64,000 nucleotides of DNA, taken from assembly GCA_016210115.1 (NCBI GenBank), contig JACQUW010000292.1:1-64000 (forward strand). The letters are read 5' to 3'. Numbering within the stretch: position 1 is the first letter of the stretch; every line of letters starts with the position of its first letter. Below, one piece after another: positions 1,791-63,402 of the stretch. The notes under the pieces were generated by a model. It saw only the letters and a list, made by a program, of their open reading frames with translations, ran no database searches and had not been told where the DNA came from. Source of the DNA: Deltaproteobacteria bacterium. Its GTDB lineage: Bacteria; Desulfobacterota; Binatia; UBA9968. The translations under genes and the position numbers were made by a program.

Positions 1791-2726
1791 TCAGTCGAGC
1801 AGCTCTAAGGCTTTGGCGGCGATGTTTTCTGCCGAAAGGCCGTATTTGCGGTATAAGCCTTCGGGATCCCCGGACTCCGCGTAATCCTCTACGGCAACGC
1901 GCCTGAGCCGGCCTTTCCCGATTTCCGCCAGAACTTCTGCGACAGCGCTCCCGAGACCCCCGGAGATCCCGTGATCTTCTACAGTGACGATTTTTCCGTG
2001 GCTGAGAGCCGCTTCGGTTATGAGTTCTTTGTCAATCGGCTTTATCGTGTGGATATTCGCGACCTGCGCTTCCACTCCCTTGCGAGCAAGAATCTCCGCT
2101 GCCCTCAGCGTGTTTTCAAGTACGCCCCCTGTTCCCATAAGGGCTACATCCTTGCCGGGCCTGAGGATTACTCCTTTACCGCACTGGAACTGATAATCGG
2201 GCGGATTAAGATCATTCACCTTCTGTCGCATCAAGCGGAAGAAAACGGGTCCCTGGTGGCGTACGACAAACTCCAGCGCTCTCTCGGTTTCGACGGCGTC
2301 CCCCGGCTGGATAACAACCATGCCGGGAAGGCTGCGCATCAGGGCGATATCCTCCAGCGCCATCTGGCTATAGCCGTCTTCGCCAATGCCTATCCCGGAA
2401 TGAGTGCCGACGATTTTCACATTCGCACGGCTATATCCGACCGACATCCGAATTTGCTCGAAGCGACCAACCAGGAAGCAGGCGAAGCTGCAAATAAACG
2501 GGATCTTCCCCGCAAGCGCCATTCCCGCGCCCGCGCCCACCAGGTTTCCCTCGGCTATCCCCATGTCGAAGAACCGATCCGGATACTCCTTGGCAAAATA
2601 TTCGGTCATGGTCGACTTGCTGAGGTCCGCGTCCAGAACAACAATATCCGGGTTCCCGGCGCCTAATTTTACCAGGGCCTCGCCGAAGGCCACGCGTGTC
2701 GCTTTAGCTGCCATTTCCTTGGTCAA
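1791..2726 (-). CDS. Transketolase, C-terminal subunit
   Basis: A 311-residue protein covering the pyrimidine-binding and C-terminal domains of transketolase. The catalytic Glu lies in DMGIAEGNLVGAGAG, followed by the loop GTHSGIGIGEDGYSQMALED. The C-terminal domain contains VTVEDHGISGGLGSAVAEVL. It transfers two-carbon ketol units in the pentose phosphate pathway together with the N-terminal subunit encoded just upstream on the same strand (gap about 97 nt). Such split transketolases are common in archaea and many bacteria. Length is normal for a split subunit. Confidence 0.92.
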   Translation of the reverse strand: MTKEMAAKATRVAFGEALVKLGAGNPDIVVLDADLSKSTMTEYFAKEYPDRFFDMGIAEGNLVGAGAGMALAGKIPFICSFACFLVGRFEQIRMSVGYSRANVKIVGTHSGIGIGEDGYSQMALEDIALMRSLPGMVVIQPGDAVETERALEFVVRHQGPVFFRLMRQKVNDLNPPDYQFQCGKGVILRPGKDVALMGTGGVLENTLRAAEILARKGVEAQVANIHTIKPIDKELITEAALSHGKIVTVEDHGISGGLGSAVAEVLAEIGKGRLRRVAVEDYAESGDPEGLYRKYGLSAENIAAKALELLD

Positions 2727-2758
2727 TCGTTAAGAGTCAAGGGAAATTTCTTTGGCCC

Positions 2759-2820
2759 ATAGTCATTCAATAATTATCCGGCTCCCAACTATTCACAATT
2801 GACGAATGACTATTGACCAT
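2759..2820. repeat. Inverted repeat and TTGAC-type short repeats between the transketolase genes
   Basis: The arms ATAGTCATTC (2759-2768) and GAATGACTAT (2804-2813) are perfect 10-bp reverse complements. The right side also reads as consecutive units caattgac, gaatgac, tattgac, cattgac. The block fills most of the gap between the two transketolase subunit genes and runs up to the stop of the N-terminal subunit. It could form a hairpin in the shared transcript, but there is no U-tract, so a terminator is not claimed. Confidence 0.55.
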
Positions 2821-2823
2821 TGA

Positions 2824-3642
2824 CTAAGCTCCCGCGAGGATTTCCTTTATGGCCCTTTCTCCCTCTTCGCGATTCGGAGCTTTTCCATGCCATTCCCATT
2901 TTCCTTCCATAAAAGAGACGCCTTTGCCCTTGGTAGTATGGCAGAGGATCATCGTCGGGTTCTGCTTTATCTTTTCGGCGGCTTCGAGCGCCTGGATTAT
3001 GGCGGCAAAATCGTGTCCAGCGATCTCCAGCGTGTGCCAGTTGAAGGCCCGCCACTTGTCGAGCAGAGGCTCCAAATCCATAATGTCTTTGATTTCTCCA
3101 CTGAGCTGGATCTTGTTGTAGTCGAGGAGGACGCACAGGTTATCGAGCTTGAATTTCGGCGCCGCCATCGCAGCTTCCCAAATCTGACCGGCCTGGCACT
3201 CGCCGTCGCTGTTGACACAGTAAACGCGATACTCTTTCTTCGAGACTTTTCCCGCCAGCGCCATTCCTAGCGCGACAGAAAGACCCTGTCCCAAAGAGCC
3301 GGTAGACGCCTCTATCCCCGGGAGGCGGTTTCGATCCGGGTGGCCTTGCAGACGGCTGTTAAGTTTTCGTAGGCTCAACAACTCTTCTCTGGAAAAGTAA
3401 CCGGCCTTGGCCAAAACTGCATAAAGAGCGGGAACACAGTGGCCTTTGGACAGGACGAGCCGATCCCGGTCCGCCCAGTTGGGGTCTGCGGGTCTATGCC
3501 GCATCTTGTGGAAAAAAAGCGTGACGAGCATGTCGATGCAGGAGAGCGAACCTCCGGGATGGCCGGAGCCGGCTTCGACAAGCATGCGAATGATATCGAC
3601 CCGTAGCTCGTTCGCAATCCCCCTGAGTTGAGAAATTTCCAT
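2824..3642 (-). CDS. Transketolase, N-terminal subunit
   Basis: The thiamine-diphosphate-binding half of transketolase, 272 residues from the preferred start MEISQLRGIANELR. Seen: EAGSGHPGGSLSCIDMLV, the substrate and TPP loops SKGHCVPALYA and GSLGQGLSVALG, and the Mg/TPP motif NSDGECQAGQIWEAAM followed by LLDYNKIQLSGE. The ORF track extends 28 residues upstream (to 3726), but that extension has no family similarity. The gene is upstream of, and presumably cotranscribed with, the C-terminal subunit gene. Confidence 0.92.
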   Translation of the reverse strand: MEISQLRGIANELRVDIIRMLVEAGSGHPGGSLSCIDMLVTLFFHKMRHRPADPNWADRDRLVLSKGHCVPALYAVLAKAGYFSREELLSLRKLNSRLQGHPDRNRLPGIEASTGSLGQGLSVALGMALAGKVSKKEYRVYCVNSDGECQAGQIWEAAMAAPKFKLDNLCVLLDYNKIQLSGEIKDIMDLEPLLDKWRAFNWHTLEIAGHDFAAIIQALEAAEKIKQNPTMILCHTTKGKGVSFMEGKWEWHGKAPNREEGERAIKEILAGA

Positions 3643-3900
3643 CTTGCTTCTATCCGCTAAAACCACTGTGATCGAGATCAATCGCGAGGTTGGACGATAA
3701 GTACCTATTTTCTTCCGAAAACGCAAGCAGCGCCTGCGATTCTGGACCGTGGTTCCGGGATCATCGAGCCGAGAGACGGGTGCACGTTCCCTGCCTGTTC
3801 GGAAAATTGACAGGAGGCGCCGGATCGGGTAGTTTGGCCGTTTTGATATTGGACATTATCACAGTTTTTGACCTGGAAGAAAAAAGAAAGGGAAAGGATT

Positions 3901-4989
3901 ATGGCAGAACCAAAAATTTCCAATCAGCAGATCGCGGAGAAGAAAAGCTCCTATCGCAAGTGGGTTGAGGCCGAGGGAGTCCCCCTCATCGAAGGTTTTT
4001 TCGTCGACGATATCAACACGCTTCCGCTTAAGCCATGGGACCGAAAGGGCGGGCTCGGAACGCTGATCTGTTTGGAGGGGACCGGCGAAACGAACGATGC
4101 CTATGTGTGTGAAATTGCTCCCGGGAAAAGCTTAAAGGCGGAGAAGCATCTTTTTGAAGAGCTGATCTACATCGTGAGCGGCCGCGGGGCTACGACCATA
4201 TGGCCGGAGGGCGGTCCGAAGCAAACCTTTGAATGGCATGAAGGTTCGCTCTTTTCGCCGCCGTTAAATACCTGGCATCAGCTTTTCAACGGGAGCGGAC
4301 ATCAGCCGGCGCGCTACATCGCGGTGACCAGCGCGCCCATCATGATCAATTTGATCCATAACCTCGATTTTATTTTCAACTGCGATTATGTGTTCAAGGA
4401 CCGGTACAATTCGCAGGACGATTACTTCACCTCGGAGGGCACCTGGTACGCGGGCAGGGTCTGGGAAACGAATTTTGCCTCCGATGTAAAGAATCTCAAG
4501 CTGATCGAATGGAAAGAGAGAGGCGCCGGCGGATCTCAGGTGCGCTTTCAGATAGCGGAAAACACCATGTGCGGCCACGTCTCGCAATTCCCTGTGGGTA
4601 CCTATAAGAAGGCCCATTATCACGGGCCGGGGGCGCACGTCATTATTCTGAGCGGGCAGGGGTATTCTCTGATGTGGCCCAAGGGGCAAGCCATCCAGCG
4701 CTTCGATTGGAAACCCGGAAGCCTGGTCGTCCCTCCCGCGAATTGGTTTCATCAGCATTTTAACGCCGGCGCGGAGCCGGCGCGCTACCTCGCGCTGAGA
4801 TGGGGCAGCAAGAAGTATTACGGCATCATGGGTGAAGGGGGAGGAGAGACCGACGTGGATATCAAGCTTGGCGGGCACCAGATCGAATACGAAGACGAAG
4901 ACGCGATTGTGCGGCAAACGTTTGAAGAAGCCTGTGCCAAGGCAGGGATCAAAAACCAGATGGAGAAATACTACAAGAAGGCGGTGTAG
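3901..4989 (+). CDS. Bicupin protein of unknown substrate
   Basis: A 362-residue protein with two cupin barrels. The first has EKHLFEELIYIVSGRG, then GSLFSPPLNTWHQLFNGSG. The second has KKAHYHGPGAHVIILSGQG, then GSLVVPPANWFHQHFNAG. The second repeat keeps an HxH metal-binding motif, while the first has a weaker set of ligands. The start at 3901 has GGGAAAGG about 8 nt upstream; the ORF-track start at 3868 adds a basic stretch without homology. Related bicupins include gentisate-dioxygenase-like and other ring-cleavage or isomerase enzymes; the substrate cannot be read from sequence. It is divergent from the transketolase pair. Confidence 0.75.
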   Translation: MAEPKISNQQIAEKKSSYRKWVEAEGVPLIEGFFVDDINTLPLKPWDRKGGLGTLICLEGTGETNDAYVCEIAPGKSLKAEKHLFEELIYIVSGRGATTIWPEGGPKQTFEWHEGSLFSPPLNTWHQLFNGSGHQPARYIAVTSAPIMINLIHNLDFIFNCDYVFKDRYNSQDDYFTSEGTWYAGRVWETNFASDVKNLKLIEWKERGAGGSQVRFQIAENTMCGHVSQFPVGTYKKAHYHGPGAHVIILSGQGYSLMWPKGQAIQRFDWKPGSLVVPPANWFHQHFNAGAEPARYLALRWGSKKYYGIMGEGGGETDVDIKLGGHQIEYEDEDAIVRQTFEEACAKAGIKNQMEKYYKKAV

Positions 4990-60917: not shown

Positions 60918-61769
60918 ATGGCGCCCCTGGTAAGTGTGATCATCCCCACCTGCAACCGCTGGCCTATGGTGGCCGAGGCCGTAGAGTCTGTGCTGGGGCA
61001 GAGCTTCAAGCGATTCGAGCTCATTGTGGTAGATGATGGCTCAGAAGATGGAACCGCTATGAATCTTCGCCAATATGGCTCGCGGCTGCGTGTGATTTTT
61101 CAGCCGAGGCGGGGTGTTGCCGCGGCCCGGAACGTGGGTGTTCGCGCTTCCGCCGGCGAATATCTCGCTTTCCTCGACTCGGATGACCTATGGAAAAGGC
61201 GAAAGCTGGAGATTCAGCTCGATTTCATGCAGGCGCATCGGGAGATTCAGATTTGCCAGACAGACGAGATTTGGATACGCAGAGGGATTCGAGTCAATCC
61301 CAAGTTAAAACACCGCAAACCCTCGGGAGACATTTTTCGGGCCAGCCTGGATCTATGCCTGGTCAGTCCCTCGGCCGTCATGATAGCCCGCGAGCTGTTC
61401 GCGAGAGCCGGCGGTTTCGACGAGACCCTGCCAGTATGCGAGGACTATGATCTCTGGCTGCGAATCGCAGTGGATACGCCGGTTCTGCTCATCCCCATGC
61501 CCCTTGTCATCAAAAGGGGAGGCCACGAAGATCAGCTCTCCCGGTCCACCTGGGGGTTTGATCGCTTTCGAGCGCTGGCCCTTCGCAAGTTGCTCGATTC
61601 GGGCCTGGCAGGCGAAAAAAGACGCTGGGTGCTTGAAGCTTTAGGCAGAAAAGTCGCAGTTCTCGCTCAGGGGGCGAGAAGACGCGGCAGAGAGGCGGAA
61701 GCCAGGAGTTATGAGGCGCTTGCGGAACCGCGGAGCGATTTTGTCGCTCCCGGCGAAAGGGCGGACTGA
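60918..61769 (+). CDS. GT2 glycosyltransferase
   Basis: 283 residues. GT-A fold: SVIIPTCNRWPMVAEAVESV, LIVVDDGSEDGT, GVAAARNVGVRASAGEYLAF and the DxD-type LDSDDLWKRRKLEIQL, then ARAGGFDETLPVCEDYDLWL (a conserved ED motif). Acceptor and donor unknown; likely cell-surface glycan. Preceded by GGAAAGAGAG. Confidence 0.88.
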   Translation: MAPLVSVIIPTCNRWPMVAEAVESVLGQSFKRFELIVVDDGSEDGTAMNLRQYGSRLRVIFQPRRGVAAARNVGVRASAGEYLAFLDSDDLWKRRKLEIQLDFMQAHREIQICQTDEIWIRRGIRVNPKLKHRKPSGDIFRASLDLCLVSPSAVMIARELFARAGGFDETLPVCEDYDLWLRIAVDTPVLLIPMPLVIKRGGHEDQLSRSTWGFDRFRALALRKLLDSGLAGEKRRWVLEALGRKVAVLAQGARRRGREAEARSYEALAEPRSDFVAPGERAD

Positions 61770-61778
61770 AAATCTGAT

Positions 61779-62324
61779 ATGCTGGAACGGGCTATACGGG
61801 AATACGCCGGAGAGAAGGGTTTTCGACAAGAGACATTGGACCGGTGGGTGCGTTTAAAAGAGGATGAGGCTCAGGCACTGCTGGAGCTCGCCCGCGAATT
61901 TAAGCTCGGCGAGAATCATTTCCGGGATTTTATGGATTGGCTCGAGGAAATTGCGCTCCGAGACGGCAAAAGCCTGCGCGAAGTCCTGCAGGCAGAGCCC
62001 ATTGCGAGCATAAGGACGGATCCCCGTCTCGGCCGAAACGATAAATTAAAGCGCGTGAAGGAAGAGGTGCGCCGCCGGCGCTTTCCCCGCCTGGCCCGCA
62101 TTCAGGACGAAATTCAAAAACGCATCCGGGAGCTGAAGCTCAATCCGAAACTCCAGATTTCGGTTTCGGCTTCTCTTGAAGGAAGCGATGTCACGATTCA
62201 ATTCAAGGCTGTCACGCTCGACGAGCTGAGGCGGCGGATACGGGAATTGGAGGAGATTGTGGAGAAGGAAGCCACGAAAGAGATCTTTACGCTTCTCAGA
62301 GGTGAGGGAGATGCGGGAATTTAA
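61779..62324 (+). CDS. Protein of unknown function coupled to a radical SAM gene
   Basis: 181 residues, largely helical and charged: ETLDRWVRLKEDEAQALLEL, DFMDWLEEIALRDGKSLREV, LKRVKEEVRRRRFPRLARIQ, and a C-terminal strand-helix segment ISVSASLEGSDVTIQFKAVT followed by LDELRRRIRELEEIVEKE. That end has a ParB-C-terminal-like rhythm but no HTH or nuclease motif, so I do not assign a family. The stop overlaps the radical SAM start by 14 nt. Confidence 0.6.
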   Translation: MLERAIREYAGEKGFRQETLDRWVRLKEDEAQALLELAREFKLGENHFRDFMDWLEEIALRDGKSLREVLQAEPIASIRTDPRLGRNDKLKRVKEEVRRRRFPRLARIQDEIQKRIRELKLNPKLQISVSASLEGSDVTIQFKAVTLDELRRRIRELEEIVEKEATKEIFTLLRGEGDAGI

Positions 62325-63402
62325 GCCGCTCGAAATCATCGTTGAGCGGGGCTCCGAAGAGAGCCCTGCCTTTAAAAATCTCTGGCGGGCTTTTCCTGAG
62401 GTCCCTTTTGTCCTGGTAGAACCGGAACGGGTGGCCGGGTTTCTATTTTCCTCTTTCGACGATCCCTTGGGAGAGGGAAAAAAGCGCCTTGTGCTCATGC
62501 GCCACAAAGGGGAATTCTTGAAAAAGTGTCCGGGCAGCGACGGACAGGTCTGCTGCAATTATTTTGTGATTAATTTCGCGAGCAACTGTCCGATGGAATG
62601 CAGCTATTGTTACCTCCAGGACTATCTGGCCAGTAATCCCGCGCTTAAATTGTTCAGCAACGTGGGCGATCTCATCGATGAGGCGCAGGCGCTTCTCAGC
62701 CGCCACCGTAAATCGTTCTTTCGCATCGGCACCGGTGAGATTACGGACAGCCTCGCTCTCGATCCTTACGTCGGCACCAGCGCCGATTTGATCCCGTTCT
62801 TTGCGGAGCAGCCCAATGCGCTGCTGGAGCTGAAGACAAAGAGTGACCGAGTGGAGGGCCTTCTGGCGCTGGACCCGAAGGGACGCGTGGTAGTTTCCTG
62901 GTCCATGAACCCGCCTGGAGTCATAGAGCAAGAGGAGCATCTGACCGCCTCTTTCGAGGAGCGGCTTGCGGCGGCGCGCCGCTGCCAGGAGACGGGTTAC
63001 AAGTTGGGGTTCCACTTTGACCCGATCGTAGAGTATCCTGGTTGGGAAGAGGATTACCGGACGATGGTGGAAACTATCTTTGCGGTCATCGACCACCGCA
63101 GGGTAGCCTGGGTGAGCATGGGTGTCCTCCGCAATACGCCCGCTCTGAAAAGAATCATGCGGCAAAGATTTCCGTCATCGAGACTCATATGCGGGGAACA
63201 GATCCTTTGCCCGGATGGCAAGATGCGCTATTTCCAACCGTTGCGCGTGAGCATGTATCGGAAAATGCTCGGGTGGATTCGCGCGGCCTCGCCAACGGTG
63301 TTCGTCTATCTTTGCATGGAATCGAAAGACGTCTGGAACCAAGTGTTCGGTTTTTTCCCGAGCTGCGAGAAAGAACTGGGCAGGCAAATGGTTTTGGAAT
63401 AA
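62311..63402 (+). CDS. Spore-photoproduct-lyase-like radical SAM protein
   Basis: 363 residues from MREFKPLEIIVERGSEESPA; the ORF-track start is 18 residues earlier. Radical SAM motif NFASNCPMECSYCYLQDYLA (CxxxCxxC). Then FRIGTGEITDSLALDP, VVVSWSMNPPGVIEQEEHLT and YKLGFHFDPIVEYPGWEEDY, as in SPL. SPL repairs spore thymine dimers in Bacillus; nothing else here suggests sporulation, so another substrate, perhaps DNA or a related photoproduct, is possible. Coupled to the unknown gene before it. Confidence 0.85.
   Translation: MREFKPLEIIVERGSEESPAFKNLWRAFPEVPFVLVEPERVAGFLFSSFDDPLGEGKKRLVLMRHKGEFLKKCPGSDGQVCCNYFVINFASNCPMECSYCYLQDYLASNPALKLFSNVGDLIDEAQALLSRHRKSFFRIGTGEITDSLALDPYVGTSADLIPFFAEQPNALLELKTKSDRVEGLLALDPKGRVVVSWSMNPPGVIEQEEHLTASFEERLAAARRCQETGYKLGFHFDPIVEYPGWEEDYRTMVETIFAVIDHRRVAWVSMGVLRNTPALKRIMRQRFPSSRLICGEQILCPDGKMRYFQPLRVSMYRKMLGWIRAASPTVFVYLCMESKDVWNQVFGFFPSCEKELGRQMVLE

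Follow-up and report, generated by a model that had tools for sequence, protein, structure and literature searches.

A radical SAM enzyme related to spore photoproduct lyase (SPL) and a partner protein derived from the ParB family were found to be conserved together, and we consider it very likely that the two act together. We read them, with an associated GT2-family glycosyltransferase, as one radical SAM system in which the ParB-derived partner is obligate, and we place this reading as a whole only slightly below even chances. It is built on the gene order, the overlap of the reading frames, the homology, the co-occurrence, the loss of a domain and the missing SPL cysteine, and it would include a physical complex between partner and enzyme, a DNA or RNA substrate and a role for the glycosyltransferase. 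The three-gene system probably represents a new route by which DNA or some other component of the cell is modified or repaired.

To our knowledge, no substrate has been settled for the SPL-like radical SAM enzymes of organisms that do not form spores. One such clade is now defined by its motifs (GTGE where the catalytic cysteine would stand, CPG..CC and CME) and gains both an obligate partner of recognisable origin and a glycosyltransferase of like phyletic pattern, which turns the question of its function into a directly testable one. It also brings to light a ParB-type protein which apparently serves an enzyme rather than chromosome partition. In the open-access literature, to which this search was confined (subscription papers fall outside it), no paper was found to link SPL-like enzymes with ParB-like proteins apart from one chance co-mention, and nothing pertinent came from combined searches on ParB-like proteins, radical SAM, DNA modification and glycosyltransferase.

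Gene order and conservation of the pair

The window, the whole stretch of 64,000 nucleotides that was analysed, belongs to a metagenome-assembled genome of 8.3 Mb (99% complete, with 9% contamination) whose nearest named relatives are Candidatus Binatia or 'Deltaproteobacteria' MAGs. Three genes follow one another on the forward strand. The GT2-family glycosyltransferase (60918-61769, 283 aa; PF00535, E 1e-33) is separated by a gap of 9 nt from the start of the partner gene (61779-62324, 181 aa), which encodes the C-terminal module of a ParB-like family. The SPL-like radical SAM enzyme follows (363 aa; PF20903, E 7e-35) and runs from an ATG at 62311 to a stop at 63402. The partner and enzyme frames overlap by exactly the 14 nt (62311-62324) that the earlier note had reported, and a Shine-Dalgarno-like sequence, gaggtgaggg (62299-62308), lies within the partner gene ahead of the ATG of the enzyme. 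Both ORFs are real genes because they are conserved at the protein level in dozens of genomes.

We surveyed 247 genomes drawn from the phylum of the window, Desulfobacterota, where the enzyme subfamily was counted at E<=1e-45 and the partner by profile. The enzyme was observed in 139 genomes and the partner likewise in 139, with both present in 134, five genomes holding each gene alone and 103 holding neither (Fisher p 3e-56, uncorrected for shared ancestry). In most of the single-gene cases the genome is incomplete or the gene lies at the end of a contig. The partner lies directly upstream of the enzyme in 88 of the 134 genomes with both; in the other 46 the two genes are apart or on different contigs and therefore the association is more than one of gene order. 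As a control, DNA photolyase was scored across these 247 genomes, and its presence showed no association with that of the enzyme (OR 1.4, p 0.29).

The same pattern was observed among 199 Acidobacteriota genomes, with the enzyme in 41 and the partner in 35, all 35 of which also carry the enzyme (p 4e-33, uncorrected for shared ancestry); the genes are adjacent in 27 of these 35. The partner was found immediately 5' of the enzyme at all 18 Binatia-type public loci, and the pair is adjacent at one locus in the Spirochaetes. At three loci in the Leptospirales, homologues of the partner appear to be unlinked from the SPL-like gene and have a divergent N-terminus in which ParB_N is unrecognisable. 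The earlier note had named conservation of the pair as the point on which its proposal would stand or fall, and the pair is indeed conserved across several phyla. No partner was found beside the more distant, out-of-clade SPL paralogues in the neighbourhoods that were fetched, and genome-wide searches of two Methylococcaceae genomes returned only ParB-type matches that stop short of the C-terminal domain.

Two further observations concern copy number and paralogues. One Acidobacteriota MAG carries three copies of the pair on different contigs, reflecting either duplication or mixed strains. Several Desulfobacterota genomes (six loci) encode a second SPL-like paralogue with an LNLGExxDPLAVD motif, and no partner occurs in the fetched stretch around it.

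The SPL-like enzyme and its ParB-derived partner

The enzyme matches the Pfam SPL family PF20903 with 120.9 bits (cut-off 27), but its score of 139.7 bits against TIGR04070, the SPL equivalog, lies below the cut-off of 400 and its score of 67 bits against TIGR03886 lies below that of 437. In an alignment of 85 rows the three cysteines of the CxxxCxxC cluster motif (C93, C97 and C100) are invariant, and so is Y99, which corresponds to Y97 of the Bacillus subtilis enzyme. The whole motif, C93-x3-C97-x-Y99-C100-Y101, is encoded at 62587-62613. Its last residue, Y101 (Y99 in B. subtilis), is a tyrosine in the window enzyme and I, V or F in most of the clade.

The H-donor in SPL is C140 in the Gt enzyme and C141 in the Bs enzyme (PMC3742179, PMC5368176). 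Alignment to PDB 4fhg and to B. velezensis SplB places E143 at this position, and 84 of 85 relatives also have glutamate there. This residue belongs to an almost invariant R-x-GTGE-x2-DS motif, in which GTGE (residues 140-143, 62728-62739) stands where SPL has the cysteine in ASC (140/141). The GTGE resembles what we take to be the ordinary 'GGE' SAM-contact motif of radical SAM enzymes. Other cysteines are specific to the clade: C73 (85/85), C81 (79/85) and C82 (85/85) form a CPG...CC motif (62527-62556) and C335 (63313-63315) is present in 84 of 84 rows within an invariant Y-x-CME motif. In the tree, the enzyme falls in a clade of its own (SH-aLRT 97-99) that is separate from canonical SPL, from the TIGR03886 rows and from the other sampled groups of paralogues. 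On these sequence features the missing H-donor cysteine, the score below the equivalog cut-off and the separate clade all mark the enzyme as a relative of SPL, and therefore it should not be called an SPL. The assignment to the SPL type made in the earlier note holds at the level of the family (PF20903) and fails at the catalytic cysteine, which is replaced.

Taken alone, the window partner reaches no Pfam or NCBIfam family at curated cut-offs. Sub-cut-off matches to HTH_32, Pcc1 and MotB were rejected as they vanish over 45 relatives. In the AF2 model of the partner (pLDDT 91) a helical body is followed by two strands and a pair of C-terminal helices, in agreement with the helical body and strand-helix end described before. 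The same description had left the protein without a family, and here its relatives led to a different answer. Most of these relatives, which come from Desulfobacterota and Acidobacteriota, have a length of about 330 aa and consist of ParB_N, a ParB-type HTH and a C-terminal domain. The window partner is homologous to residues ~158-329 of such proteins encoded next to SPL-like genes, and thus corresponds to the C-terminal half of these ParB-like proteins. It begins after the recognition HTH and comprises the C-terminal region, preceded by the helices at the distal end of the ParB HTH domain.

The ParB origin of the long partners was observed at several levels. They match PF02195 with E-values down to 2e-13, above the cut-off in several cases, and their positions 7-200 match PDB profiles of Noc and ParB down to 1e-26; Foldseek returned ParB, Noc and KorB structures, including 7bnk/7nfu. 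The NTP motifs are retained among 26 long partners, with GxxR in all 26 and (E/D)NxxR with N102 in 26 and R106 in 25. The ParA-binding motif [LFI]G[KR]G[LFI] was found in none of the 26 and no parA was seen beside the long partners. The C-terminal domain occupies the last ~130 residues, carries the signature LRxxRFPxL...LPPxI...PPxFEG and gave no match in the PDB by profile or by fold.

ParB_N is missing from the window partner and from all Binatia-class partners that were checked, and it is present in most relatives. Relocation of this domain to another place in the host genome was ruled out, as the only matches there are a single full one on another contig (C106), presumably the chromosomal ParB, and a sub-cut-off fragment. 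Short partners comprise all the Binatia-class proteins checked and those of a second family group (five loci), which is nested among long forms; two further short partners were left out as contig-end truncations. Mapped on the SPL tree, the short forms require two changes, and a topology that unites all of them in one clade was rejected (AU p 0.009), the group having been named after the tree was seen. The ParB/HTH part has been lost at least twice and the C-terminal module was kept each time, and therefore this module is the part which always stays with the enzyme.

The glycosyltransferase and other neighbouring genes

The GT2 gene directly upstream of the partner, which was passed over in the earlier note, belongs to one conserved family. 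The protein has a Glycos_transf_2 domain with an FLDSDD motif, in which D87, D89 and D90 are invariant in the family alignment, and members of the aligned set share 43-71% identity with the window protein. Among the Binatia loci examined it lies directly 5' of the partner with a single exception (L071), a sequence that begins only 164 bases ahead of the partner frame, and it was found in this position in 44 genomes of the phylum sample as well. It also adjoins the partner in several Desulfobacterota families, where the order glycosyltransferase-partner-SPL was seen in two genomes (G031 and G075).

At E<=1e-70 the GT2 family was present in 139 of the 247 genomes, in exactly one copy each. All three genes occur together in 127 genomes and none of them in 98 (p 4e-46, uncorrected for shared ancestry); in most of the three-gene genomes the glycosyltransferase is located elsewhere. 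Furthermore, unlinked copies were observed in all seven Acidobacteriota genomes tested and in two Spirochaetes genomes. Seven genomes of the phylum sample, and the Leptospirales, have the pair without this glycosyltransferase. Phages gave only weak, generic GT2 matches and plasmids gave none for the family, and therefore it has a chromosomal function. On balance we favour, with moderate confidence, a glycosyltransferase that works in the same pathway as the pair.

A viral or plasmid origin of the system was rejected, since searches with the enzyme and the GT2 returned nothing beyond remote relatives of SPL and GT2s of a generic kind. A known anti-phage defence system was also rejected, as PADLOC gave no match for the three window proteins or for a long partner.

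Other genes recur near these loci. The gene purC (SAICAR synthetase) takes the place of the GT2 directly 5' of the partner, sometimes overlapping it, in several Desulfobacterota families (nine loci). Unlinked copies of the GT2 were found in a series of a dihydrouridine synthase (Dus), a LytB(IspH)-UbiA fusion and the glycosyltransferase (five loci), and murI and secA recur near Binatia loci. All of these were considered as a further conserved component and set aside because they recur within lineages only; they look like inherited gene order.

A different arrangement was seen in a genome of the same class that has no partner (G243). There, positions 2093-4895 of locus L204 (contig C60, 58000-65500) hold an overlapping series of a speD-like gene, speE, a glycosyltransferase of the same family, a phosphorylase/nucleosidase-like gene and, last, an SPL paralogue that belongs to a different clade. 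The nucleosidase-like gene may stand in for the ParB-like partner or may remove 5'-deoxyadenosine.

Proposed function and relation to known systems

The ancestral partner would have been a ParB-like protein, with its NTP-binding fold and HTH, that carried a new C-terminal domain. The most likely role of this domain is to bind the radical SAM enzyme or to offer the substrate to it. In the long forms, the ParB part would act as an NTP-gated clamp that recruits the complex to DNA; the Binatia have lost this DNA-clamp part, and there the C-terminal module alone would serve the enzyme. The enzyme is expected to cleave SAM, and the resulting 5'-deoxyadenosyl radical would attack the substrate, for which a nucleobase of DNA or RNA is the likeliest candidate. 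The glycosyltransferase probably works on the same product or pathway.

By this scheme the system probably modifies or repairs nucleic acid, and for nucleic acid as the substrate we regard the chances as evenly divided. SPL acts on thymines in DNA (PMC3742179), and DNA is favoured because both this nearest characterised enzyme and the ancestor of the partner act on DNA. The Binatia dispense with the DNA-binding part; therefore DNA targeting is not essential in them, and RNA or a small molecule is also possible. The genes of the neighbourhood (purC, Dus, IspH/UbiA and murI/secA) point nowhere clear, which counts against the scheme. Its most far-reaching form is a phylum-spanning machine for nucleic-acid modification or repair in which a ParB-type clamp delivers the enzyme, the GT2 glycosylates the product and some lineages have shed the clamp while keeping the enzyme-binding module; we put this forward only tentatively, as a rather doubtful extension.

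A rival to this scheme is a hypermodification pathway for nucleic acid, where the enzyme would functionalise a base (at the thymine methyl, for example), the GT2 would add a sugar and the ParB-like protein would pick the sites, as an anaerobic counterpart of base J. The common phyletic pattern of the GT2, ParB-like and SPL-like genes agrees with this, as do the three-gene operons in distant lineages and a GT2 that is single-copy, strongly conserved and chromosomal. As a rule, however, GT2 enzymes synthesise polysaccharides or sugars linked to lipids, and no gene for a base hydroxylase or a nucleotide pathway lies consistently near; moreover, some lineages have the pair and lack the GT2. We judge this pathway unlikely.

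Much the same standing is given to small-molecule or cofactor biosynthesis, in which the ParB fold would be an NTP-using kinase-like or carrier unit (compare SerK/SbnI) and the radical SAM enzyme and GT2 would yield a glycosylated metabolite. Serine-acting enzymes of the ParB fold (SbnI and a free serine kinase) do occur among the profile matches, the GT2 is conserved like a housekeeping enzyme, metabolic neighbours are frequent (purC by the partner, IspH/UbiA by the glycosyltransferase) and the NTPase part is gone in the Binatia. The long forms nevertheless keep the ParB HTH, their best profile matches are to Noc and ParB over 160-190 residues and not to SerK, and no conserved biosynthetic cluster surrounds the genes.

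Direct repair of the spore photoproduct, or of a related dithymine lesion, in non-spore-formers with C81/C82 as the H donor appears less probable still. Membership in the Pfam SPL family, the invariant Y99 and the extra invariant cysteines just 5' of the cluster motif would suit such a reaction, and an alternative H-donor cysteine, C74, is documented in the SPL of C. acetobutylicum (PMC5368176). Set against these are the glutamate at the H-donor position in 84 of 85 rows, the variable second relay tyrosine and the score far under the equivalog cut-off (139.7 against 400 bits). Moreover, repair by SPL is not known to require either a ParB partner or a glycosyltransferase. Coincidental vertical inheritance of three unrelated genes, which the phylogenetically uncorrected statistics and the varied contexts would allow, is highly improbable (and already unlikely for the pair) in view of the same-order adjacency in several phyla, the almost one-to-one presence that recurs in Acidobacteriota and to some extent in Spirochaetes, and a photolyase control without such a pattern.

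The radical SAM system with a ParB-derived partner shares features with several known ones. The window enzyme resembles SplB (PF20903, TIGR04070) in its radical SAM fold, its CxxxCxYC motif and its equivalent of B. subtilis Y97, and it can be aligned with PDB 4fhg over about 210 residues (E 5e-26). Its clade differs in having glutamate for Cys141, a non-conserved Tyr99 equivalent, the extra invariant C73, C82 and C335, and a ParB-like partner. The TIGR03886 'Spore photoproduct lyase family protein' of Deinococcus, cyanobacteria and Aureimonas likewise represents the SPL superfamily outside spore formers, but these proteins group with canonical SplB, have no partner gene in their annotated neighbourhoods and, in the case of Aureimonas and Nostoc, retain the cysteine (SCYTD).

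Similarly, the long partners share ParB_N, the HTH, GxxR and (E/D)NxxR with the CTPase clamps ParB, Noc and KorB (PF02195, PF17762), whereas a new C-terminal domain replaces the ParB dimerisation domain and the window partner lacks both ParB_N and HTH. Orphan proteins of the ParB-CTPase fold, surveyed in PNAS in 2025 (PMC12704722), likewise lie outside parAB operons and carry the fold together with lineage-specific domains; the main text of the survey makes no mention of radical SAM or photoproduct. The partner described here differs from these orphans in being a separate gene whose ParB part can be lost. Finally, the SOS operons of ImuB-C and a SplB-like radical SAM protein (PMC3765255) also combine a SplB-like enzyme with an accessory protein, but ImuB-C is a domain of ~80 residues made mostly of beta-strands, whereas the partner described here is helical and derived from ParB.
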